Source: Colwellia polaris (GTDB lineage: Bacteria; Pseudomonadota; Gammaproteobacteria; Enterobacterales; Alteromonadaceae). Taken from it: a stretch of 64,000 bases of DNA. The position numbers and the translations under genes are program-made. Each line of letters starts with the position of its first letter. Position 1 is the stretch's first letter. The stretch covers positions 1 through 64,000 of the forward strand of contig NZ_NBOE01000002.1 in the NCBI RefSeq assembly GCF_002104515.1. The letters are read 5' to 3'. Below, piece by piece: positions 3 through 42,810 of this stretch. Under the pieces are notes generated by a model, which was given only the letters and a program-made list of their open reading frames with translations, was not told the origin of the DNA and did not search any database.

Positions 3-542
3 GCCAGGCAAGCCAATAAAGAAGATAAGTGTACTGGCCACTTCTGGGAAGGACGCTTTAAATCTCAAGCCCTGCTTGATGACGCTGCATTACTGTCTTG
101 TATGGCTTATGTAGATTTAAATCCTGTTCGTGCCGGTATTGCCCCAACGCCTGAGCAGTCAAGCTTTACCAGTATTCAACTGCGTATCAAGGCAGCGATT
201 AAAGGAGAGCAACCTAAAGCCTTATTACCTTTCACTGACAATGAACATCAAGACAAAACTGCAGGCATTTCTTTTAGCTTAAAAGATTACTTAACACTTG
301 TTGATGAAACTGGGCGCGTGATGAGAGAAGATAAACGCGGCGCTATCAATGCTAAAACGGCTGAAATACTATCAAGACTCCACATCAGCGATGAGAGCTG
401 GTTAAAACTCACCACCAACTTTGAAGGTATGTTCACTGGCGCGGTAGGTACTGCAGAGCATTTGTGTGAATTTACAGAGCAGGTTGGTTTAAAGCGAGCT
501 CATGGTATCGCCAACGCTCAGGCTTGTTTGAATAGCGCTTAG
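3..542 (+). CDS. IS200-like / REP-associated (RAYT) transposase, 5' end outside window
   Basis: The open frame is already running at the window edge and reads GHFWEGRFKSQ, then a stretch ending YVDLNPVRAG, then about 130 further residues to a TAG stop. The HFWEGRFKSQ...YVDLNPVRA pairing is the hallmark of the C-terminal half of Y1-type transposases of the RAYT branch, which nick single-stranded DNA at REP-like hairpins. The catalytic His-hydrophobic-His motif and probably the tyrosine lie upstream and cannot be checked. An ATG at 102 is internal to the domain and is unlikely to be the start. The long C-terminal extension is typical of the larger marine members. An inverted repeat and a family of dispersed repeats lie directly downstream, as expected for a RAYT and its substrates. 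Whether the gene is intact is not visible. Confidence 0.8.
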   Translation, partial: ARQANKEDKCTGHFWEGRFKSQALLDDAALLSCMAYVDLNPVRAGIAPTPEQSSFTSIQLRIKAAIKGEQPKALLPFTDNEHQDKTAGISFSLKDYLTLVDETGRVMREDKRGAINAKTAEILSRLHISDESWLKLTTNFEGMFTGAVGTAEHLCEFTEQVGLKRAHGIANAQACLNSA

Positions 543-574: not shown

Positions 575-630
575 GTTTTCTGAGGATGACATTAAAAGCT
601 TGCCTGAAATTCAGCAAATGCTCAGAAAAC
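575..630. repeat. Inverted repeat downstream of the transposase
   Basis: GTTTTCTGAG at 575-584 is repeated as its exact complement CTCAGAAAAC at 621-630, with 36 bases between. It begins 32 bases after the transposase stop. The right arm is also the left edge of the dispersed L repeat (the same CTCAGAAAAC-type arm recurs near 41209). It may be a RAYT substrate hairpin or a transcription terminator. There is no clear T-run, so the first is somewhat more likely. Confidence 0.5.
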
Positions 631-753
631 TCTGCAAATAGGCAACATATCCCTCAGTTACATACTGAATAGTCCTACTAAAGAAAAAGTAATCTTCCCT
701 TTCTTTGTTTGGTTTTTCTACAAAGATATTATGGGTGGCTTGATAAATAGCTG
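619..753 (+). repeat. Dispersed repeat L, copy 1a
   Basis: About 130 bp running from TGCTCAGAAAACTCTGCAAA to GGGTGGCTTGATAAATAGCTG. It matches the sequence at 41208-41336 along nearly its whole length with scattered substitutions, and its right 100 bp are repeated again at 787-886. No open frame of note is seen in it. It sits on the 3' side of the minus-strand KAP NTPase gene. The 41-kb copy sits in the same relation to the alpha/beta hydrolase gene. Confidence 0.85.
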
Positions 754-786
754 CAAAGATATTATGGGTGGCTTGATAAATAGCTG
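721..786 (+). repeat. 33-bp perfect tandem duplication inside the L repeat block
   Basis: The 33 bases from 721 (CAAAGATATTATGGGTGG and onward to AGCTG) are repeated exactly at 754-786. They form the end of L copy 1a and join it to L copy 1b, which again ends in most of the same sequence. The block looks like the product of slippage or unequal recombination between L copies. Confidence 0.9.
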
Positions 787-886
787 CCTCAGTTACATAC
801 TGAATAGTCCTATTAAAGCAAAAGTAATCTTCCCTTTCTCTGTTTGGTTTTTCTACAAAGATATTATGGGTGGCTTGATAAATAGC
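787..886 (+). repeat. Dispersed repeat L, copy 1b
   Basis: About 100 bp starting CCTCAGTTACATACTG. It is nearly identical to 652-753 with a few substitutions, and it lacks the leftmost ~30 bp of copy 1a. It is followed by a short TTGATAAATAG duplication at 878-897. No coding potential is seen between here and the NTPase stop apart from the hairpin at 968-1022. Confidence 0.85.
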
Positions 887-967
887 TTGATAAATAGTTT
901 AGGCAACTGATCGCAACCCCTTCAGAAAATCAATCGCTATTGACTATATAAAGCAGACTCCGGGCTT

Positions 968-1022
968 GTCCAACACCCGAATAAGGTGTCGGCTGCGCGA
1001 CACCTATTCTTATTTGTTAACT
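968..1022 (-). other. Hairpin resembling an integron attC site at the 3' end of the KAP NTPase gene
   Basis: On the minus strand the gene's TAA stop overlaps AGTTAAC. A strong hairpin follows (GAATAGGTGTCG paired with CGACACCTTATTC, 6-base loop, one extra unpaired T), then an unpaired GGGT and GTTGGAC. GTTGGAC fits the attC right-core consensus GTTRRRY exactly. AGTTAAC fits the left-core RYYYAAC with one mismatch. Stem, extrahelical base, central spacer, and a position and orientation just after the stop codon are all attC traits. A rho-independent terminator is the alternative, but no T-run follows. No integrase gene is visible, so the call is tentative. Confidence 0.4.
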
Positions 1023-2825
1023 AGCACTTTGCTCTTTCTTAGAATTCTGTTTTTCCATTCTAGAATATGCTTCAAATAAGCTGTCATAAAGTTCAGCTAA
1101 ACTAGCAACTTTTAGTCCTACACCAAGTTCTTTTCGTAAATCATCAACCACTGTTGATAGGGACTTTAAAGCTTCTAATTCTGGTTCAAAGAAATCTCCG
1201 ATATTACTAAATTTATACCTCTGCTTAATAAACCTAACAAACTGAAACACATCTTCATTAGACCAATTTCGTAAAGCCACTTCTATAACATCTACGCTTA
1301 TGTTTTGAAAAATCGGAGTGTGCATTTTATTTTGATAAACATCATCTTGAACATTAGCCCATGACACTTTAAAGTCTTGAGAGAATTGCGAATTTTTATT
1401 ATCTTTTTTTAGAATATCCAGTTCTTCTTTCTTCAAGTAGAATTTTTTACTTACCTCATTGTCATAAAAGTTAATTCGATACCTATATTCAAATTCATCC
1501 TCTTCTGCTGGCGCTTGAAACCTATCGACATCAACACTATCACATAAATCTAACAAGCTAGGTTTTGTATGTTTTTTAGGAGCAATAACTTTTTTATCCA
1601 GCATATAAATATATGTATCACAAATACTGAACCATTCGTAAACCTCTACATCCGTCTCTTGAGCTATAAACGCTTCTAGTAATAACACACCATCTTGGAA
1701 TTCTTCTTCGGATAATTGATTTTGAACCCAAGGTGATTTCATGGCATCAAGAAGAGTCTGTTTTATTGGTAAATTTAATTCCGATTTTAGATTAGTGAAC
1801 TCGTAAAGCCCATCACAGCAGTAGCAAATTAACTTTTCATTCGCACCATAGAAACTTCCATCGAATATTGCATCCAATTTTTCATAGTCACTATTGTTTT
1901 CTTTTTCATTGTCTTTATCCATTCGACGGAAAACTCTTGAACCAATAGCATCAATGATTTTTTCTTTAGAAAAAGCATGCTCGAACTTTGCACAGCATAT
2001 TCTTATTATATCTCCTAAGATTCTTGATAGTGCTAGATCAAGGACGACATTTTCTATTTGAGATATTTCTTTTTTAATACGAGTAAACTTTGACAAGGCT
2101 CTTTTTAAAACTCTAATGTTTTTCGAGTTTATAGCCGTAATATTTAGAAGAAGTTCGTTAGCTAACTTATCATCAATAGTTTCGTATTCTTCTTTAAGGA
2201 TTGAAGTAACTTCTTCATGCGTAAAGCTAAATTTATATTTATCGGCAAATACTTTCTCAATATCATTTTTACAATTAAGCTTGTCTTCGTTTGCCACTAC
2301 AATAACTTTTATATTTTTCGACTCAGCTAAACTTAAGCACTCACCTAAAATTTTTTGAATTAGTTTTTCTTCAACAACACGTTCTAAATCATCTAAGATC
2401 AATACACAATCATCAAGCTCGCCATAGAGTTTATATTTGTAGGCTCCAGCAGCTCCGCTTAGCACAGCACCGACACCTCTTTCTCCTAAATTATTTGCAG
2501 CACCATCAATGGCTTTAGAGAAGTATTTGGCTAGTACGGACGCTTCTTCTTTGTCAGTTAGTGACAAAGAGATAATCTTATCTCTAAAATCATCAATGCT
2601 AGAAATTCCATAAAGGGAAAAAAAGTAAACCTTTTGACTGAATTTTTCTTCAACCTTTTCTCTCAAGTTATTATTTATAAAATGTGTTTTGCCACTTCCC
2701 CATGCTCCATCGAGCAAAACAATCTGCGGAAATGAAGGGTCTTCTAATAGCTCTATTATTTGATCGACTTGCTTCACAATGACCTCGAAATTTCCCGTGC
2801 TAGTTAACAATTTAATAGGAGGCAA
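1017..2825 (-). CDS. KAP-type P-loop NTPase, solitary cargo gene
   Basis: A 602-residue protein with a Walker A motif GAWGSGKT at residues 40-47 and a Walker B motif VLILDDLERV at 141-150, the spacing and 'DDLER' signature of KAP-family P-loop NTPases. No convincing transmembrane helix is seen, unlike many KAP proteins, so it is probably cytoplasmic. The C-terminal ~350 residues are not recognised. The frame opens with TTG at 2825, four bases after AAGAGG on the minus strand, and this start lies inside the shared R repeat and within a 15-bp palindrome. A start further in (for example GTG near residue 17) is possible. The gene stands alone, bracketed by R upstream and L downstream, and looks like horizontally moved cargo. 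NTPases of this fold are frequent in phage-defence loci, but a defence role here is only inference. Confidence 0.7.
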   Translation of the reverse strand: MPPIKLLTSTGNFEVIVKQVDQIIELLEDPSFPQIVLLDGAWGSGKTHFINNNLREKVEEKFSQKVYFFSLYGISSIDDFRDKIISLSLTDKEEASVLAKYFSKAIDGAANNLGERGVGAVLSGAAGAYKYKLYGELDDCVLILDDLERVVEEKLIQKILGECLSLAESKNIKVIVVANEDKLNCKNDIEKVFADKYKFSFTHEEVTSILKEEYETIDDKLANELLLNITAINSKNIRVLKRALSKFTRIKKEISQIENVVLDLALSRILGDIIRICCAKFEHAFSKEKIIDAIGSRVFRRMDKDNEKENNSDYEKLDAIFDGSFYGANEKLICYCCDGLYEFTNLKSELNLPIKQTLLDAMKSPWVQNQLSEEEFQDGVLLLEAFIAQETDVEVYEWFSICDTYIYMLDKKVIAPKKHTKPSLLDLCDSVDVDRFQAPAEEDEFEYRYRINFYDNEVSKKFYLKKEELDILKKDNKNSQFSQDFKVSWANVQDDVYQNKMHTPIFQNISVDVIEVALRNWSNEDVFQFVRFIKQRYKFSNIGDFFEPELEALKSLSTVVDDLRKELGVGLKVASLAELYDSLFEAYSRMEKQNSKKEQSAS

Positions 2826-3066
2826 CTTGCCTCTTTTACAGCAAAAAAGTTTCCACCTTATTTATTTTATATATTAATAACAAATCTTTGCAGCCAACAC
2901 CACTTATTACCTACAGATAAAAACAAAACTTTCGCTTATAGTCGAAATGAGGCAAGTTGCCTCATTTCCTGACTTGGGTGGAAACAAGTTACAACTGCAT
3001 TTAAATACTCAGTTATTAAACTAAATTAAGAACAAGAAGATGCTGCATCAATGTCCACTTCAGGCT
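2805..3066 (-). repeat. Dispersed repeat R, copy 1 (upstream platform of the KAP gene)
   Basis: About 260 bp that match 42549-42810 at roughly nine positions in ten, beginning TAACAATTTAATAGGAGG on the plus strand. It contains a palindrome at 2819-2833 (GAGGCAACTTGCCTC) and a 25-bp palindrome at 2944-2968 (12-base arms, one central base). There is also an inverted pair GTTTCCACC / GGTGGAAAC. Identity with copy 2 ends exactly where the cargo genes begin. It contains the apparent promoter and Shine-Dalgarno sequence of the downstream minus-strand gene. No protein is encoded in it. Confidence 0.9.
2868..2897 (-). promoter_or_regulatory. Possible promoter within R, reading into the KAP gene
   Basis: On the minus strand TTGGCT (2897-2892) is followed after 18 bases by TATATA (2873-2868), which leaves about 40 bases to the TTG start. 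The same bases are unchanged in R copy 2 upstream of the alpha/beta hydrolase. The region is very AT-rich, so chance is a real possibility. Confidence 0.35.
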
Positions 3067-3384
3067 CACAATTGCCATAAAATAAATGAATGATGACATC
3101 TTTTTTCTAAATGCTTAAATACTTTAGGGTGGCATACTTAAATGTAATTGGCTGGCAAGGCTAGATGGAATTGAGCGGCAATGATGGTCGATATTTTCCA
3201 TAGTAGATTCGAAGGTCGATTTTAGGTACTCATTTACGAACTGCCCTTTGCAGAAAAAGCATATACAAGTATTCGTAAAAGATAATTAACCTATCTCTTT
3301 TTATACTATAGATTGGTCTTTAACTGGGTTCTATTCGTACTGCTAACAATATGCATTTTATCTACAATTAAGACTAGAATTTTT
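3067..3384. other. Non-coding stretch between R copy 1 and the DUF2805-type gene
   Basis: About 320 bp with no convincing open frame, no strong hairpin and no match noticed elsewhere in the window. It presumably carries the promoter of the gene starting at 3385. It may also hold decayed sequence from earlier insertions, but nothing recognisable remains. Confidence 0.5.
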
Positions 3385-3733: not shown

Positions 3734-4852
3734 TTATTGAAAGGTCTTTAAATAATACTGACTTCTACCGCTCTCTTTTGCTTCATACAAATATTCATCG
3801 GCTATTTTAACTAAGTTATTACAAGTGCTTTTAGCGGTACTAGCCTTTAAAACAGCGCCAACCGATACTGAAGTTTTCAGCCTCTTTCCGCGATGATTAA
3901 TGTTAAAGTTTGCAACAGATAACACTATATCAAAACAAGTTTGTTCAAGGCTTTCGCTAGTAATGCCATATAAAATAATGGCAAATTCATCTCCGCCTAT
4001 ACGAAAACCTATGTCTTCTGAACGGCGACATTTAGCATCAATAACTTCTGCTATTTTAATTAACACATCGTCACCAACGCTGTGACCAAATGAGTCATTT
4101 ACCGCTTTAAAATTATCAGCATCAATTAAAATTAAACCCAATGTTGCATTATCCCTAGTCGCAATGGCATTTAATCGATCTATTTCTTCTTGAAAAGACC
4201 GTTTATTATGGAGTTTAGTTAAGCCATCTGTAATAGATTCGTTGTATAGCCTATTGATAAGTTGATAATTTTGATAAAGGGTTTTTTGACCTGCAAGATT
4301 GATAGTAAGACAAATACCAGTAACAAAAACGAGGATTATCAGCACAAATATTAAGTCAGGTAATGCTTGGTTTAGATGCAACTTAACAGCCGCAAACGAC
4401 GATAGAATAATAAATGTAGCTGTCATTGCTGGCTTTATTGGGATCACTATTAACAAACAACCAAACATTAATATAAGCACTAACCCTAGCTCTGAAAATG
4501 GAAAGTCATAAATACTAGAAAGGTAAAAAATTAAGGTATGATTTAATCCACTTGCTATATAAACCGTGATTAATATGAGTAAATTTGCACGAATTGAACT
4601 TGGAGGATAAAACCAATATACAATATTTAAATATATTAATGGTAATATGACTAAGAATAGTCGTGTTGTTAAGGTTAGTGAGTAAACTTCGCTAGGAAAT
4701 TTTAATACGTCCATTACCGCAAAAGCTAGGTATAAAAGTAGGGATACCAGTAGCGCCCATCGCCTAATACTTAAGCACTGATCCATTAAAAAATGTAAAA
4801 AGTTATCTGAAGATTTTACATTGTCACTCTCATGTTTTATTTCTGTGTTCAT
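3734..4852 (-). CDS. Membrane-bound diguanylate cyclase (GGDEF)
   Basis: A 372-residue protein whose N-terminal ~200 residues hold about six hydrophobic helices, followed by a GGDEF domain (about residues 205-370). The domain starts with the typical DGLTKLHNKRSF and includes the metal-binding LIDADNFK. The catalytic GGDEF is intact, and RSED five residues before it matches the product-binding I-site RxxD, so an active, feedback-inhibited c-di-GMP synthase is expected. The membrane part is not a recognised sensor such as MASE1 or 7TMR; its ligand is unknown. It is monocistronic, with no EAL domain in or beside it. Confidence 0.9.
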   Translation of the reverse strand: MNTEIKHESDNVKSSDNFLHFLMDQCLSIRRWALLVSLLLYLAFAVMDVLKFPSEVYSLTLTTRLFLVILPLIYLNIVYWFYPPSSIRANLLILITVYIASGLNHTLIFYLSSIYDFPFSELGLVLILMFGCLLIVIPIKPAMTATFIILSSFAAVKLHLNQALPDLIFVLIILVFVTGICLTINLAGQKTLYQNYQLINRLYNESITDGLTKLHNKRSFQEEIDRLNAIATRDNATLGLILIDADNFKAVNDSFGHSVGDDVLIKIAEVIDAKCRRSEDIGFRIGGDEFAIILYGITSESLEQTCFDIVLSVANFNINHRGKRLKTSVSVGAVLKASTAKSTCNNLVKIADEYLYEAKESGRSQYYLKTFQ

Positions 4853-5267
4853 ATAAATACTTTTTAATACTTATGAAAACCGGTGGTTTAATTATTTTTT
4901 TTATTGAAAATTAGCAAAGCTAAAGTAAACCACACGAATGATTACCTGTTCTAGTATAACTGTTTTCACCAGCTTTATTGTATACCTGGGCTTATAGGCT
5001 GATTAATCGTTATTAGCCTATGTTTAAAAGTGGTGACTGGTTAACAAAGATAATACTCACGGTACTTGAATTTAAACAAGAATACTAATTTACCGCTCAT
5101 TTTATAATTTGTTATCGCTATATATTGGCAGCGCTTATTAAACAATATTGGTTAGTGTTGGGTAAAATACGAAATTTCATTGTATGTTTTTATAAACATT
5201 ATTAGTCAACCGCTAAAAAGTGATGCAAACTAGCATGCGACGGTTATTAACTTATTGGATCGATATT
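4853..5267. other. Intergenic region between divergent diguanylate cyclase and small-protein genes
   Basis: About 415 bp, AT-rich, containing the 5' regions of two divergent genes. One short hairpin is visible near 4994-5022 (ATAGGCT ... AGCCTAT). No open frame or match to the dispersed repeats was noticed. Promoters must lie here, but none stands out from the background. Confidence 0.5.
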
Positions 5268-5552
5268 ATGAATTTAGACAAATCAACAAAACGCATTGCC
5301 AAAAAAGTTAAAAATGGCTTTCAGGGCTATCCGCAAATAACATTGGCTTATTTTGGTGTATCAACAGATATAGCAACAAAAGTGGTGGTTAGTTTTCTTT
5401 TAGAAGAAGGGGCTGATGCTCAAGAAGAGAGCTTTTCTAGTAAAAATGATGTTCGTAAAGATGAAACCATTCAAACGACTATCGTAAAAATAATTGAACG
5501 TGCAGAAGCAAAAACAGTTATTGAAATCGCAAACGTTGAGAAAATTAATTAA
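5268..5552 (+). CDS. Small conserved-looking protein of unknown function
   Basis: A 94-residue protein beginning MNLDKSTKRIAKKVKNGF, taken from the ATG at 5268. The frame continues upstream to 5220, but those residues look non-native. It has a basic N-terminus, then a PQITLAYFG strand, an acidic middle and a C-terminal DETIQTTIVKIIERAEAKTV segment that should be helical. It has no signal peptide or membrane segment and is probably cytoplasmic. The balanced composition and clear secondary-structure pattern argue that it is real. I do not recognise the family by name. It stands alone, 165 bp before the porin gene. Confidence 0.6.
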   Translation: MNLDKSTKRIAKKVKNGFQGYPQITLAYFGVSTDIATKVVVSFLLEEGADAQEESFSSKNDVRKDETIQTTIVKIIERAEAKTVIEIANVEKIN

Positions 5553-15820: not shown

Positions 15821-15969
15821 GCATTTTCCTTGTTACTTACAGTAGTGTTTTGTTTTATTAGTATTATATTTACATGCAATCGTCGACATTGCATTTGATG
15901 AGTTTTACTTTATCAAAAACTACGCAGTAATGATTGGTTTTTTAGTGCTTGTAACACCGAGTGTTTAAG

Positions 15970-16202
15970 TAACCTGAACTCTGGATAAGCAGCACTTGCT
16001 CAATGCTCCCTTTTAAGCCATTTTCTGCGTTAAAACGTCGATAAATAGCGCGCTATTCATAAACGTTTTGCCTTAAAAATGGCATAAAATGAAGCATTGA
16101 TGATGTCTATTCGTGATGTTCACCTAGCTAGAGCATTTACTTTATCAACTAAGCTTTTGATTCACTTGAGTATCAAGCAATCATTATCCAGAGTTCAGGT
16201 TA
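15970..16202 (-). mobile_element. 233-bp MITE, copy 1
   Basis: A non-coding element of exactly 233 bp, bounded by the 19-bp inverted repeat TAACCTGAACTCTGGATAA and its complement. Two further copies of the same length lie at 25533 and 27678. This one is in the opposite orientation to them. The TA at each end is consistent with a TA target duplication as made by IS630/Tc1-mariner-type transposases. It lies between the BtuF-like gene and cobC and separates divergent transcription units. Confidence 0.9.
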
Positions 16203-16272
16203 AGTAAAGTTGTTTCGTTGTTAATACAGCAAGTTTATTTGCTAGACTGTATGCAATTATTGCTAAAAAATC

Positions 16273-16941: not shown

Positions 16942-17093
16942 TCATGGTTTAGTTATGGTTTAGTTTTGCTGTCAGCGCAATATTGCAAACATTTATGGTT
17001 TCACTGAGTTTAAAAAACTTGCTATTTCCCCCTCGCTGTTGATAATCGCGAGATTAATTAAATAATGTCATATTCAATTTTACATTCATGATT

Positions 17094-17225
17094 GAAGGTA
17101 AAACTGGGAATGTGGTGAAAATCCACAACTGTGCCCGCAACTGTAAGTAGCGCATATATTTATCTCTAAGTCATAACGTTATTGACTAAAGTAGGGTGAG
17201 TGCTAAAAGTCAGGATACCAGGGGA
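17094..17225 (+). promoter_or_regulatory. Cobalamin riboswitch upstream of cobT
   Basis: The conserved B12-box core is visible: AAGGTA..CTGGGAA, GGTGAAAATCCACAACTG, then CCCGCAACTGTAAGTAG, and at the 3' side AGTCAGGATACC. Together these are the diagnostic blocks of the cobalamin riboswitch. About 180 bases separate the aptamer from the cobT start. A TCGAG/CTCGA hairpin just after it (around 17249-17265) could be part of the expression platform. Binding of adenosylcobalamin should repress the cob operon. Confidence 0.93.
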
Positions 17226-17405
17226 AATATAGATATTAATTACCACGTCGAGCGGGTTACTCGAGCATTGGAATTTTATTTTTACATTGAAAGCTATGCC
17301 ATCAATGGTAAGATATCTCTCCCTTAAGCCTCTAAACTCATCAACGTTATTCATAACTTGTCAGCCTATATATTTTATAGGCTTGGCCATTGTTAGGTGT
17401 TGAAA

Positions 17406-25062: not shown

Positions 25063-25179
25063 GAACACCTCAAAAGTTTTTGAGGGGCGTACGGAAGGCA
25101 ACAGACAATTTAGCAAAACTGTTGCTAATGTCGATATATTTCCGAAGCGCCCACCGCACTGCAAATAATTCTATGTTGT

Positions 25180-25325
25180 TTAGGCCGGTCTCCGGGCTTA
25201 ACTTTGCAAAGCAAAGTATTACCGTTGCGGGGGCAGCGTTAGAATTATGCATAAAACATGTCACTAACTTCCCGATTATCTCTTTATTTTTAACGTTGTT
25301 AACGTATAAATATCGAGCACCTAAG
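25180..25325 (-). promoter_or_regulatory. Cobalamin riboswitch upstream of btuB
   Basis: Read on the minus strand, the region begins TTAGGTGCTCG. It contains ATCGGGAAG and the strongly conserved GCTGCCCCCGCAACGGTAA, and ends AAGCCCGGAGACCGGCC. This is the classic B12-box arrangement. It lies about 120 bases before the btuB start. It is of a different subtype in detail from the aptamer at 17094, so the two are not a recent duplication. Confidence 0.93.
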
Positions 25326-25532
25326 CAATTTTGAGCGGCAATTCTGACCCCATTACTATGGCTTGTCAACTGTTAGCATTATTAATCTTAAGGCGAATTA
25401 GGTTGCCGCTTTAGTGCTTGCAGAATTTACACTTATGAGTATTTTATAGACCTTATAAATACTCTTTCTATTAATTAATGAGGTGGTAGTTAAGGAATCA
25501 ACACAATTGTAAGTGTTTTCCTTTAACTAAAT

Positions 25533-25765
25533 TAACCTGAACTCTGGATAATGGGTGTTTGATACTCAAGTGAATCAAAAGCTTAGGTGTTAAAGTAAAT
25601 GCTATAGTAAGGTGAACATCACGAATTTACACCATCAATGCTTCATTTTATGCCATTTCCAAGGCAAAACGTTGATGAATAGCGGGCTATTTATCGACGT
25701 TTTAACGCAGGTAATGGCTTAAAAGGGAGGATTGAGCAAGTACTGCTTATCCAGAATTCAGGTTA
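25533..25765 (+). mobile_element. 233-bp MITE, copy 2
   Basis: The same 233-bp element as at 15970 (opposite orientation) and 27678 (same orientation), with TAACCTGAACTCTGGATAA at its left end and a one-mismatch complement at its right. It is non-coding and sits between the btuB leader and the end of the pilin gene. Its right end is two bases from the pilin stop codon. Confidence 0.9.
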
Positions 25766-25767
25766 AA

Positions 25768-26289
25768 TTAACATCCAGAAGAAATAATATCGTATTTCGG
25801 GCCAATATTTTCTGATGCGGCTTGGGTGTATCTAAAGTAGCAATTATCATCGCTTACTTGATTATTTTCATTACTGTCATAACCAACAAAAACAAAGTTG
25901 GCGCCTTGCTCTTCAAAGATTTTTCTCCCTGAGAGTTTAAACTGTTCAGACACTTGAATTTGTTTATAAACTTCATGATTATCGATATAAGAGTGTAATA
26001 ACCTTAAATCAACACCATTAAGGTCAATCGAGCCGTTATTGTCCATATCAATATCGACTAAGTCAGGTCGTCCACTCACAGGAAATGTAACATAGCTTGG
26101 CAATTTAGACTTAATGAATATCAAACGGTTAGCTGCTTGCACGCTAACACTAAATTGAGTTAATACCGATATTTTAGCTTCTTTTGACAAACTGATGAAT
26201 TTGGGTAATACGGTGGCTGCTAAGATGCCAATTATTACAATAACAACAACTAATTCAATTAAAGTGAAACCTTTACTACTACGACTCAT
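25768..26289 (-). CDS. Type IV pilin-like protein (MSHA/pseudopilin class)
   Basis: A 173-residue prepilin. The type III signal sequence is clear: a short basic leader, SKG then FTLIELVVVIVIIGILAATVLP with Phe +1 and Glu +5, ready for cleavage and N-methylation by the prepilin peptidase. The C-terminal part holds two cysteines (near NCYFRY and the terminal SSGC), as in many pilins with a disulfide-bonded loop. A DMDNNGSIDLNG stretch resembles a calcium-binding loop. It resembles MSHA-type pilins, but none of the assembly genes is nearby. The stop is two bases from a MITE. The protein appears complete, though a tail lost to the insertion cannot be excluded. Confidence 0.8.
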   Translation of the reverse strand: MSRSSKGFTLIELVVVIVIIGILAATVLPKFISLSKEAKISVLTQFSVSVQAANRLIFIKSKLPSYVTFPVSGRPDLVDIDMDNNGSIDLNGVDLRLLHSYIDNHEVYKQIQVSEQFKLSGRKIFEEQGANFVFVGYDSNENNQVSDDNCYFRYTQAASENIGPKYDIISSGC

Positions 26290-27554: not shown

Positions 27555-27677
27555 AATACTACTGTTTTTTTGGGGAAATAACGTCGTTTATGCATCTTCA
27601 ATGGGCATTATGTTAAGACAATAGTCATAATAAATACAGCTATCATTGCGGTATTTAAAGCAGTTTTAATACTTAGT

Positions 27678-27910
27678 TAACCTGAACTCTGGATAATGAG
27701 TGCTTGATACTCAAGTGAACCAAAAGCTTAGGTAATAAAGTAAATGCTATAGCCAGGTGAACATCACGAATAGATATCATCAATGCTTCATTTTATGCCA
27801 TTTCCAAGGCAAAACGTTTATGAATAGCGGGCTATTTATCGACGTTTTAACGCAGAAAATGGCTTAAAATGGAACATTGAGCAAGTGCTGCTTATCCAGA
27901 GTTCAGGTTA
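27678..27910 (+). mobile_element. 233-bp MITE, copy 3
   Basis: The same element and orientation as copy 2, with perfect 19-bp terminal inverted repeats here (TAACCTGAACTCTGGATAA and TTATCCAGAGTTCAGGTTA). It lies between the kinase-like gene and the LysR gene. With copy 2 it brackets a 1.9-kb segment holding the pilin and kinase-like genes. An internal stretch with GGCAAAACG...CGTTTTAACG can fold on itself. Confidence 0.92.
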
Positions 27911-27964
27911 GTTACATGGCTGACTTAGTTGTAATTGTTATCATCATTGTGAGTTGCAGGTTAA

Positions 27965-40316: not shown

Positions 40317-40740
40317 AATTGAAGCCTCTTTGGCAATTGCACTAATTATATTCTTAAGCATAAATAATAGTGTCGATTATTAGTATTTTCATATAATAGC
40401 AGAGAAGTAATTTACAAAGAATGACAGTGGATAATATTTGAGAACACCAATAGTCAATTGTGATTAAAGTAAATGATCATTTGGATACTTTGCTGGCTTT
40501 ATTTAAACCTGTTATTACCTTCTGTGGAGTTATAAAAAATATTAAAGGCAATTTAAGCCAAAACTTAAGATATGTTTATGGGGTTGGTTTAAGTTCAAAG
40601 TAGGCACTAGTAATTTTATAACTAATGACTACTGTGAACATTGGCTATATTTCAACGAACCTGACCTTGCAGACAGGCTTTTTATGGTTACAAAGAGACT
40701 GCTTTCATGTCAGAACGCTAAATATTACTAGTTATCGAAC
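40317..40740. other. Non-coding stretch, with a 9-bp inverted repeat
   Basis: About 420 bp without a convincing gene. ACTAGTAAT near 40607 and ATTACTAGT near 40725 form an inverted pair around roughly 120 bp, which could be the remains of a small element. A CCTGACC...CAGACAGGCTTTTT stretch near 40670 may act as a plus-strand terminator. Nothing else recognisable is seen. Confidence 0.4.
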
Positions 40741-41163
40741 TCAGGGCGTGTTGTTATAAACTGTTTTAACCGCATACCCTTGATACTTCAATACAAAATC
40801 TTTCGCTTGAGCTAAAGTTTCAGGATATGGAACGCTATCACAGCCATTTTTAACGGGCCTAATTTTTTGAAATACAAAACCATGCTCGATAAGATACTCT
40901 ACTTTTTTCCATTGTGAAGTATCTGATTTTTTAGGTGGCTTGAAATGACGACCAACACATATCGCAATACCATCACAAATAGGACAATCTATAGATTTGG
41001 GGTAATGGCATGGCTCAAGATTATATTGACGCATATTCGAAGTTCGGCAAGAACAACAAACATAGGATAAGGAATATTCAGGCCCTTTTTCTTTAACTTG
41101 AGGTTTAGGCAGGTCTCTATAACCTGCTTCCCTTCTGAGTTCCATTTTCTGATGCTTATCCAT
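40741..41163 (-). CDS. Cys-rich small protein with zinc-ribbon-like motifs, function unknown
   Basis: A 140-residue hydrophilic protein. The centre holds CCSC (residues 36-39), a lone Cys, then CPICDGIAIC near residue 60, which together look like a zinc ribbon or rubredoxin-like knuckle. The C-terminal half (SQWKKVEYLIEHGFVFQKI, LAQAKDFVLKYQGYAV) should be alpha/beta. It has no signal peptide. I do not recognise a family. The N-terminal MDKHQKMELRREAGYRDL is basic. The gene sits between non-coding sequence and the L repeat, in an accessory patch, and may itself be mobile cargo. Confidence 0.6.
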   Translation of the reverse strand: MDKHQKMELRREAGYRDLPKPQVKEKGPEYSLSYVCCSCRTSNMRQYNLEPCHYPKSIDCPICDGIAICVGRHFKPPKKSDTSQWKKVEYLIEHGFVFQKIRPVKNGCDSVPYPETLAQAKDFVLKYQGYAVKTVYNNTP

Positions 41164-41207
41164 GTCAGATTACGCCTTATTTAGGATGAGTGTCCAGTTA
41201 AGTTCGA

Positions 41208-41336
41208 TGCTCAGAAAACTCTGCAAATAGACAACATCCCCCTCATTTACATACTGAATAGTCCTACTAAAGCAAAAATAATCTTCCCTTTCTATGTTCG
41301 ATTATTTTATACAGTAGTATGGGTGGCTTAATAATA
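41208..41336 (+). repeat. Dispersed repeat L, copy 2
   Basis: About 130 bp matching 619-753, from TGCTCAGAAAACTCTGCAAA to GGGTGGCTTAATA, with more changes in its right third (around 41295-41320). It has the same orientation as the left-edge copies and lies downstream of a minus-strand cargo gene, as they do. It is also about 45 bp upstream of the Cys-rich protein gene. Confidence 0.85.
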
Positions 41337-41338
41337 TA

Positions 41339-41503
41339 GTAGAATTTCTCTTTTAGAAAAAACAGCCACAAAAATTATTAAAAATCAAACCCAAAAACGC
41401 GTTCCTACGCGAAATCTGAGGCTATATCCCACTAAAAAATGACTTTTAAAGGCTGTATGAACTTAAATTTCATCTGTCCTTTTCCACTTTGGAGAAATTC
41501 TAC
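41339..41503. mobile_element. 165-bp MITE-like element with 12-bp terminal inverted repeats
   Basis: GTAGAATTTCTC at 41339-41350 and its exact complement GAGAAATTCTAC at 41492-41503 bound 165 non-coding bp. Inside is a further inverted pair (AGGCTGTA near 41450 and TACAGCCT across the right end). No second copy was noticed in the window. It separates L copy 2 from the hairpin that ends the hydrolase gene. Confidence 0.5.
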
Positions 41504-41505
41504 AG

Positions 41506-41580
41506 CCTCAACGCCCAAATAATAGGCAAATATCAGTTGGTTAAAATAAGCGACGCAGGAGCAAAAACCAACTGTTATTT
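41506..41580 (-). other. Second attC-like hairpin, at the 3' end of the hydrolase gene
   Basis: On the minus strand the stop codon lies in AAATAACAG. A 15-bp stem with one mismatch follows (AAATAACAGTTGGTT against AACCAACTGATATTT, 23-base loop). Beyond it comes TATTATTTGGGCGTTGAGG. The GGGYGTTG ending is shared with the hairpin at 968-1022 (TTATTCGGGTGTTGGAC) and resembles the right end of Vibrio-type attC sites. The last core base deviates from GTTRRRY and the left core is poor, so this is weaker than the first. Confidence 0.3.
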
Positions 41581-42540
41581 GTCCTGATTAATTTGCTTGT
41601 TAGCTTTCTGGTTGCTGATCCATGCATAGACTCTCTCATTAACTTCACGCATTATTGGAGAGCTACATGAGTTGGCATAGCTCAATATAGAAGGTTCTTC
41701 TTTTTGAAACCTAAGCATATGATCCATACCCTCAACAACATAGGTTTCTGTTTGGTTTGGGGATACTTCTGAAATTAAAAGTGTATCATCTGGATGGCAC
41801 TGGAAATCCTTGCTACCTCCAATAGCTAGTATTGGATGCCCTGAATTTTTCAAGAATGACTTAACGTCATAGTTAAATGTCTCTCGATAAAACTTAGTGC
41901 TCACCCTAGAAAAAGAAACCCACATTCTCTTGGCTTTTGTTTTTTCTACCTTACGCCTGAGCTTTATCATGGTCTCTAATGGGGTTTTAGAATATAGAAA
42001 TAATCGGGCTAATTTTCCTTTTAAACCTGTCATTTTATTTAAGTCACGATTAAGTACTTCGGCGTTTTTTACGCCATCTTCTTCAAAACTTCTTAAACTG
42101 GCACATAACATTATTATACCAGCAAGGTCATGCTTTTTCGATGCAACTTCAGGAGCTAAGACAGCGCCTTCACTGTGTCCTAGCAAGTAAATTTGTTTAG
42201 AATCTACATCGTCTGCTTGCTTGCTAATGTAGTCAATTGCAGCACAAGCATCTTCAACCATTTCAGATAAACCAGCAATTTTAAAACACCCCTCACTTTT
42301 TCCAATGCCCCTTTTGTCATATCGAAAAGAAGCGATTCCTTTTTCGGCTAAAAATTCTGCAATGTATTTAAAGATTTGAGTGTTAAAACCTGACATATTC
42401 CCATCTCGATCTTGCGCGCCACTACCATGAACCATGATGACACAGGGTAAAGATGAATCACCTTTAGGAACTGTAAGCGTACCTGAGAGGAGAATTTTAT
42501 CCGATGGAAAATTTACTTCTGAATGCAAACCAAACTCCAT
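41575..42540 (-). CDS. Alpha/beta hydrolase, cargo gene of the second bracketed locus
   Basis: A 321-residue serine hydrolase of the alpha/beta fold (hydrolase_4/dienelactone-like). The oxyanion region is MVHGSGAQDRDGN (about 34-46), then SFRYDKRGIGKSEG, the nucleophile elbow LLGHSEGAV (Ser about 118), an acidic residue in GGSKDFQCHPDD and the catalytic His in VEGMDHMLR. It has no signal peptide and is cytoplasmic. It probably hydrolyses an ester or amide; the substrate is unknown. The ATG at 42540 lies just beyond the end of R copy 2, which appears to supply its promoter. It is unrelated in sequence to the KAP gene that occupies the equivalent place at the left edge. Confidence 0.8.
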   Translation of the reverse strand: MEFGLHSEVNFPSDKILLSGTLTVPKGDSSLPCVIMVHGSGAQDRDGNMSGFNTQIFKYIAEFLAEKGIASFRYDKRGIGKSEGCFKIAGLSEMVEDACAAIDYISKQADDVDSKQIYLLGHSEGAVLAPEVASKKHDLAGIIMLCASLRSFEEDGVKNAEVLNRDLNKMTGLKGKLARLFLYSKTPLETMIKLRRKVEKTKAKRMWVSFSRVSTKFYRETFNYDVKSFLKNSGHPILAIGGSKDFQCHPDDTLLISEVSPNQTETYVVEGMDHMLRFQKEEPSILSYANSCSSPIMREVNERVYAWISNQKANKQINQDK

Positions 42541-42548
42541 TTGAAAGC

Positions 42549-42810
42549 TAACAATTTAATAGGAGGTAACTTGCCTCTTTTACAGCAAAAAAGTTTCTAC
42601 CTTATTTATTTTATATATTAATAACAAATCTTTGCAGCCAACACCACTACTTACCTACAGATAAAAACAAGAATTTCGCTAATAGACGAAATGAGGCAAG
42701 TTGCCTCATTTCATGACTTGGTGGAAGCAAGTTACAACTGCATTTAAATACTCAGTTATGAAACTAAATTACGAATAGGAAGATGTAGCATCAATGTCCG
42801 CTTTAGGCCC
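42549..42810 (-). repeat. Dispersed repeat R, copy 2 (upstream platform of the hydrolase gene)
   Basis: About 260 bp matching 2805-3066, with the 25-bp palindrome conserved exactly at 42688-42712 and the first palindrome changed at one base. The putative promoter bases (TTGGCT, 18, TATATA on the minus strand) and the AAGAGG Shine-Dalgarno are also kept. Homology to copy 1 ends within a few bases of the hydrolase start. Beyond 42810 the two loci are unrelated. Confidence 0.9.

Follow-up and report, generated by a model that had tools for sequence, protein, structure and literature searches.

Gene cassettes of integrons begin with TTRRRY, and the R'' box at their other end is complementary to that start. 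Integrons typically have one attI site, which lies close to the integrase gene, and IntegronFinder 2.0 recognises attI sites of class 1 only (PMC9024848, as far as the accessible part of the article goes), so that a dispersed layer of attI sites would be missed. Elements that lack an integrase are also described, both as clusters of attC sites lacking an integrase (CALIN) and as single attC sites lacking an integrase (SALIN), including 115 single orphan cassettes in Shewanella (accessible part of PMC9229058). Here we analyse a stretch of 64,000 nucleotides from Colwellia polaris (contig NZ_NBOE01000002.1, positions 1 to 64,000), called the window below, in which two genes, one for a KAP P-loop NTPase and one for an alpha/beta hydrolase, each have the same repeat L on their 5' side and the same repeat R on their 3' side. 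In our reading, to which we give a probability of about 0.83, L represents a copy of the attI site of an integron without its integrase, the KAP and hydrolase genes are cassettes at the G^TT crossover of this copy, attI copies of this kind are dispersed in the genus, and the integron integrase IntI most likely acts on them in trans.

Results

Both genes lie on the minus strand, so that L is the 5' and R the 3' repeat, where the original prediction had R upstream and L downstream of the KAP gene. Its basic observation holds, in that the same two repeats flank the two genes in the same order and orientation. L (2806-3066, aligned over 2802-3065) matches its partner at about 42.5-42.8 kb (42550-42808) at 92% over 264 nt (E 5e-109), and R (618-750) matches 41207-41339 at 87% over 134 nt (E 4e-41), both far beyond chance; a further R copy lies in tandem at the KAP locus (787-885). 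The R identity had been said to end at the 5' end of the cargo, but it ends about 115 nt beyond the KAP stop codon and about 235 nt beyond the hydrolase stop codon, with other sequence in between. On the L side the homology of the two loci stops at the integron crossover G^TT (TTG^TTA), at 2808/2807 and 42552/42551, and both genes start right after it. A gene duplication is ruled out, since the homology stops at this crossover.

The nature of L can be read from a relative. Our sample consists of 17 genomes of the genus, including the window's own genome, and the relatives named below are G001, G006, G009 and G014. In G001 (C17) the L core (1296-1474) immediately precedes the integron integrase gene intI (319-1233, with one in-frame stop), in divergent orientation, and the window L core matches the interval between this intI and the first cassette at 85% over 179 nt. 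From this position between intI and the first cassette we identify L as a predicted integron attI site with the integrase promoter (Pint) region, the integrase gene being absent. Several copies still have a readable integrase start (MKTKSPFLN...) and a CTG-N10-CAG box, which is not retained in the two window copies; the box lies near the integrase start in types A and L of the families described below and resembles a LexA site. No integrase gene was found beside L at either window locus, and the TIGR02249 matches of the own genome lie elsewhere. Among them is an intact integron integrase of type A (C12:601742-602689), with 463 bits against a cut-off of 265.

A search with L (E<=1e-4) gave matches in 10 of the 17 genomes and none in seven, while an integrase above the TIGR02249 cut-off is present in 15. 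In the own genome it finds five places with attI or most of it, namely the KAP and hydrolase loci, C12:270 kb, C7:31.6 kb, where the copy again stands next to integron sequence in the form of integrase fragments, and the diverged C26:177.5 kb, as well as C3, with the outer part only, and shorter pieces. A second family, type A, is the attI of the intact own integrase and has nine own-genome places, with matches in 9/17 genomes and none in 8/17. The third family, type C, for which the query was taken from G009, has matches in 13/17 genomes and four own-genome places, three of them diverged or incomplete, and the own-genome integrase search found no integrase near these places. The own genome thus holds about 18 attI places (5 L, 9 A, 4 C) against one intact integrase. 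In G009, which is a single contig, copies of L, A and C are spread from 0.93 to 3.39 Mb, and the dispersal is therefore not an assembly effect. Three families of predicted attI sites are scattered in this way around the chromosomes of the genus, without an adjacent integrase.

The counts below refer to 46 copies of types A and L that have GTT at the computed crossover; type C was excluded. Left out were window-L matches that do not reach position 255 (L021, L022, two outer-L matches at L024, L083-L085, L087-L089, L091 and the second L086 piece), seven copies without GTT at the crossover (L059-:8722, L077+:5695, L080, L081, L090, L178-:4390 and L184) and L192, which is at a contig end. Within the set, L018, L067, L185, L190 and L191 adjoin an integrase gene, L020 adjoins integrase fragments, L075 has an intact integrase gene at a distance of 2.7 kb, and L086 is diverged. 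The shared attI/Pint sequence to the left of the cassettes measures at least 143 nt in 43 of the 46 copies and about 70-145 nt in the remaining three (L082, L077-:1009 and L086, the last in two pieces).

The right ends of the inserted genes were compared with their starts. At 39/46 copies the first seven bases of the cassette recur as their reverse complement within 2.4 kb downstream, against a mean of 20.7% and a maximum of 41.9% in 500 permutations of the cores; in direct orientation the own core recurs at 15/46. A covariance model built from 18 attC sites, with the window excluded, places the start of an attC on the own R'' box at 30 of the 46 copies, and in 30/30 no other attC comes before it on the downstream side; the model itself had been built with 17 of the 30 sites. 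For type C, 17 of 30 rows have the self-complement, although some places were fetched twice and two of the 17 have a GTTTTAT core, which is atypical as a cassette start.

At the end of each cassette of the two window loci, read on the minus strand, stands an R'' box that is complementary to the bases with which the cassette starts. The hydrolase attC, which stands without a nearby intI, is the sole model site on the array strand of the window (E 3.3e-25), and its own mirror on the opposite strand scores E 0.02. At the KAP locus the covariance model gives no attC and an Rfam search found no family at the right end, and the R'' half alone is present, where AGTTAAC matches the cassette start GTTAACT with 12 nt complementary in all. 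The sequence after this box also follows the R'' of three G006 cassettes, and there an IS91-type transposase and a tyrosine recombinase come next; the KAP attC is thus interrupted by an IS91-like element end directly after R''. A 55-nt KAP attC, accepted at first, was dropped, as the same sequence, including the part past R', follows these three G006 R'' boxes and leads into the IS91-like element. The cargo genes of both loci are predicted integron cassettes.

We collected 37 first-cassette proteins from the 46 attI copies, that is, open reading frames of at least 50 codons among the 39 box-bearing copies, with L176 and L177 omitted. They have no pairwise match at E<=1e-3, which upholds the earlier idea that genes were swapped into a fixed non-coding frame and not duplicated. 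PADLOC families (E<=1e-5) were found at five of the 37 (KAP, PDC-S49; L073, ThsB; L079, PDC-S47; L185, PDC-S31; L068, LmuA, 1.8e-7); these are raw counts, from which no enrichment is claimed. The L073 gene (5012-5713), which is the first gene after a dispersed G014 attI, matches Thoeris ThsB at 2e-117. L061 is a TIR protein and stands outside the 37.

Two pairs of loci bear on cassette turnover. G001:C22:58.8 kb and G009:2.02 Mb are one syntenic locus in two species, with left flanks alike at 74-87% (about 4.8 kb, in pieces) and right flanks at 82% (0.9 kb). A dispersed attI-L is present on both sides, the integrase is cut at the identical point, and the cassettes are different, two in G001 and at least four in G009. 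G001:C6 and G014:3.39 Mb agree in 710 bp of left flank and in the truncation point, and differ in their first cassettes; no right-flank match was found for this pair, in which the G001 contig runs for about 4 kb beyond attI. The same intI truncation together with different cassettes suggests, as the simplest reading, that cassettes were exchanged after the local loss of the integrase.

R is an independent repeat of the type associated with repetitive extragenic palindromic (REP) sequences and REP-associated tyrosine transposases (RAYT), and is separate from L. It adjoins RAYT-like coding sequence in the window (3-518), at C24:201-202 kb and at C3:69 kb, and within 5 kb downstream of attI it was found at 2/46 copies, the two window loci only (blastn, E<=1e-6). 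The RAYT-like protein of L065 matches NF047646 at 2e-10 with 40.7 bits, under the cut-off of 80, and has no Pfam family at 1e-3; no match to the RAYT-like protein was found among solved structures. At C3:69.0-69.5 kb some 80-105 bp separate the outer L part from R and RAYT-like sequence, and neither attI nor a cassette stands between them. This place could be an empty frame or equally a deletion.

With regard to how attI spreads, the copies group by genome in trees, with 6 label changes for type A and 9 for type L, where 0/200 shuffles are as low; the type L tree contains 28 L-type cores, and the trees have few well-supported inner branches. Within subgroups the copies have the same truncated left end, in or near the start of the integrase gene. 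The attC boxes host IS110/IS1111-type ends, an IS91-like end and an element like a miniature inverted-repeat transposable element (MITE). No constant pair of ends around the attI units was found from RAYT/REP, IS110/IS1111, IS91-like or MITE-like sequences, so that none of them is more than a candidate carrier for the spread of attI. A search of plasmids gave no L match (phages and viral contigs were not searched). No clean empty site was found, as the folA and DUF2805 flanks are too diverged in the relatives and the G014 counterpart of the G001/G009 locus has the left flank alone in common.

Table 1. Coordinates of the features at the KAP and hydrolase loci of the window.
Feature	Position	Strand	Remarks
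RAYT-like gene, C-terminal part	3..518	+	tblastn 52% identity to L065 protein
R: two tandem REP-like repeats, AAGCCACCCATAA units	619..903	-	
IS91-like element end, placed right after KAP R'' box	925..1015	-	same sequence after R'' of three G006 cassettes
Predicted KAP gene cassette	1016..2807	-	5' end TTAACTAGCAC; 3' R'' box AGTTAAC; 12-nt inverted match GTTAACTAGCAC at both ends
KAP P-loop NTPase open reading frame, 586 aa	1017..2777	-	PADLOC candidate defence family PDC-S49, 3.7e-31
Predicted attI-L core, KAP locus: attI and intI-promoter region, no intI	2808..2984	-	85% over 179 nt to G001:C17 intI-cassette interval
Outer (alpha) left flank, KAP locus	2985..3200	-	repeat adjoining attI types L and A in own genome
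Diverged end sequence resembling IS110/IS1111-type elements found after R'' boxes elsewhere	40738..40756	-	
R copy, hydrolase locus	41207..41339	-	
MITE-like element in attC R' core	41340..41509	-	ends GAGGCTGTAGAATTTCTC / GAGAAATTCTAC
Predicted hydrolase cassette attC	41506..41605	-	90.9 bits, E 3.3e-25; window excluded from the model
Predicted hydrolase gene cassette	41512..42551	-	
Alpha/beta hydrolase (serine aminopeptidase S33 type), 321 aa	41575..42540	-	Hydrolase_4 2.5e-18
Predicted attI-L core, hydrolase locus	42552..42727	-	crossover G^TT 42552/42551
Outer (alpha) left flank, hydrolase locus	42728..42808	-	

Several elements were found in attC sites. One, which carries a tyrosine recombinase and a transposase of the IS91 type, ends right after a cassette R'' box at L062, L190 and L193 of G006 and in the window at 925-1015, which suggests an attC-targeting rolling-circle element. 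The MITE-like element, of about 175-185 bp with the ends GAGGCTGTAGAATTTCTC, sits in the attC R' core in the window (41340-41509), at L244 (2059-2231, with CGTT on either side as read by eye), at L193 (4 copies) and at L024 (3 copies). L178 (C3:1-7000, reverse complement 4350-5350) carries two tandem attI-A units; the cassette of the first has an attC interrupted by an element, and the second unit is inserted within this attC, beside a near-perfect hairpin GAGGTATTTAAGG..CCTTTAAATACC. Separate from the integron finding, the window also contains three copies, one of them inverted, of a repeat about 240 nt long, which are 90-94% alike (15962-16207, 25526-25773 and 27671-27914), and two cobalamin riboswitches (17065-17240 and 25166-25339; Rfam).

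Discussion

We propose that an integron integrase encoded elsewhere would recombine cassettes in trans into the dispersed attI copies, that the cassettes would be inserted at the G^TT crossover of a copy that has no integrase of its own, and that the first cassette may then be transcribed from the attI region. Judging from sequence comparison, we consider such activity of IntI in trans likely.

A number of observations weigh against this proposal. The own-genome integrase of type L is degenerate, the intact A-type integrase is 59% identical to the IntI-L of G006, and its use of attI-L is only putative. A search of the L region for sigma-70-like promoters gave 0 matches to the consensus, where shuffled sequence gave 1.1. 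The self-complementary box is not present within 2.4 kb at 7/46 copies, and the model attC is absent from the place of the own box at 16/46, some of them element-interrupted (KAP, L060, L180) and others unexplained; at the KAP locus itself only one half of the attC is visible. For three of the seven copies left out for want of GTT at the crossover (L059-:8722, L178-:4390 and L080), GTT lies a few bases off, with small indels. In the trees, moreover, the attI cores are not sisters at either shared locus, as L076 of G009 joins another G001 copy and L182 of G001 joins L184 of the same genome, so that gene conversion or segment replacement is possible.

It is possible, though in our view rather unlikely, that the copies are degraded integrons, each of them a former complete integron minus its integrase, which would make them CALIN or SALIN relics with a visible attI and no trans activity. 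This would fit the own-genome L copy on C7, which adjoins integron-integrase fragments, and the short 5' intI piece that several copies retain (about 60-100 bp in the longest cases inspected). However, against the roughly 18 attI places of the own genome there are integrase remnants at one other region only (short fragments could escape), and the grouping of copies by genome, with subgroups that have one common truncated left end, points to the spread of platforms that were already truncated. The cassettes also differ at the syntenic G001/G009 locus despite its common truncation.

A second explanation, which we regard as about equally doubtful, is a REP/RAYT-linked transposable module that bears attI and cassettes, in which a RAYT or RAYT-like HUH enzyme would spread the units and IntI would only swap their contents. 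RAYT-like genes or pieces are found within 5 kb downstream of 20/46 attI copies and upstream of 3/46 (205 kb on each side), and REP-like motifs within 400 nt to the left of 8/46 copies against 4/331 windows further left, with 39/410 windows downstream; in these counts related copies are not independent. The left flanks of two G009 copies, read by eye, resemble a RAYT 5' region. Yet the 5 kb downstream are free of RAYT-like matches at 26/46 loci (14/46 regions are shorter than 5 kb or at a contig end), and neither a common right end nor a target duplication of the whole attI unit was found. RAYT and REP sequences may merely insert near attC hairpins, and the RAYT assignment is based on a match under the NCBIfam cut-off.

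The original prediction took L, cargo and R together as an element of no described type, and that L and R are the ends of a new transposable element now seems very improbable. They do flank both genes in one order, and at C3:69 kb outer L stands beside R with no gene between. But L stops at the integron crossover, R is also present at C24:201.7-202.3 kb, a place for which no match to L or attI is reported, and the swapping chemistry is a known one, with L an integron attI/Pint region and the cargo integron cassettes. Of the many units with different genes that had been expected, many attI copies with different cassettes were indeed found, but R lies downstream of only two of the 46; L and R are thus mostly unpaired, which the prediction had itself held to speak against such a unit. 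Empty L-R sites had been expected as well, and the C3 place is one candidate, for which a deletion is an equal explanation. The weakest explanation is that IntI put the cassettes into non-attI sites (attG), with L a chance or inherited flank: IntI-mediated attG insertion is reported (Loot 2024, as cited in the accessible part of PMC12901181), but it would not supply the common attI/Pint sequence that stands left of all the counted copies.

We return to the reading that cassettes are exchanged in trans at scattered attI copies. A wider and more tentative picture, which we would put at somewhat less than an even chance, is that of a distributed integron, in which attI platforms of three families occur as dispersed repeats at about 18 places in one genome and are served by one integrase in trans, with many first-position and possibly expressed cassettes, and are spread as REP/RAYT-linked units. 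An integron with one attI expresses only its first cassettes well, and the others form a largely silent store. Scattered attI platforms, if true, would hold many cassettes in first position at once. They would also account for some orphan cassettes and would escape finders that are based on attC and intI. KAP and a few other cassettes look like anti-phage genes, and the arrangement may therefore matter for the turnover of defence.

Compared with known systems, the loci described here have the integron-family IntI, the attI and the attC cassettes with R'' and R' boxes of the sedentary chromosomal integron of the Vibrio type, as well as the LexA-like box near the integrase start in types A and L, but many attI copies lie away from any intI. 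Like CALIN and SALIN elements they have cassettes away from intI, often one or few; those elements are defined by attC alone, whereas the arrays here also begin at an attI/Pint copy at each counted locus. Insertions at attG likewise place cassettes at ectopic chromosomal sites, but an attG site is no copy of attI and comes without an attI/Pint region. Integron mobilization units and MITE-bounded integron fragments are mobile pieces of integrons without an integrase, but no terminal inverted repeats that bound the units were noticed here. The IS1111-attC group, of which attC-targeting members are mentioned in the accessible part of PMC11187229, may have a counterpart in the IS110/IS1111-type ends directly after the R'' of some last cassettes; here, however, these elements are an ornament of the arrays and not the platform. 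A literature search, which missed most subscription papers and is weak evidence of absence, gave no report of dispersed attI platforms. As dispersed platforms that lack an integrase, the attI sites of this genus appear to be a new variant.

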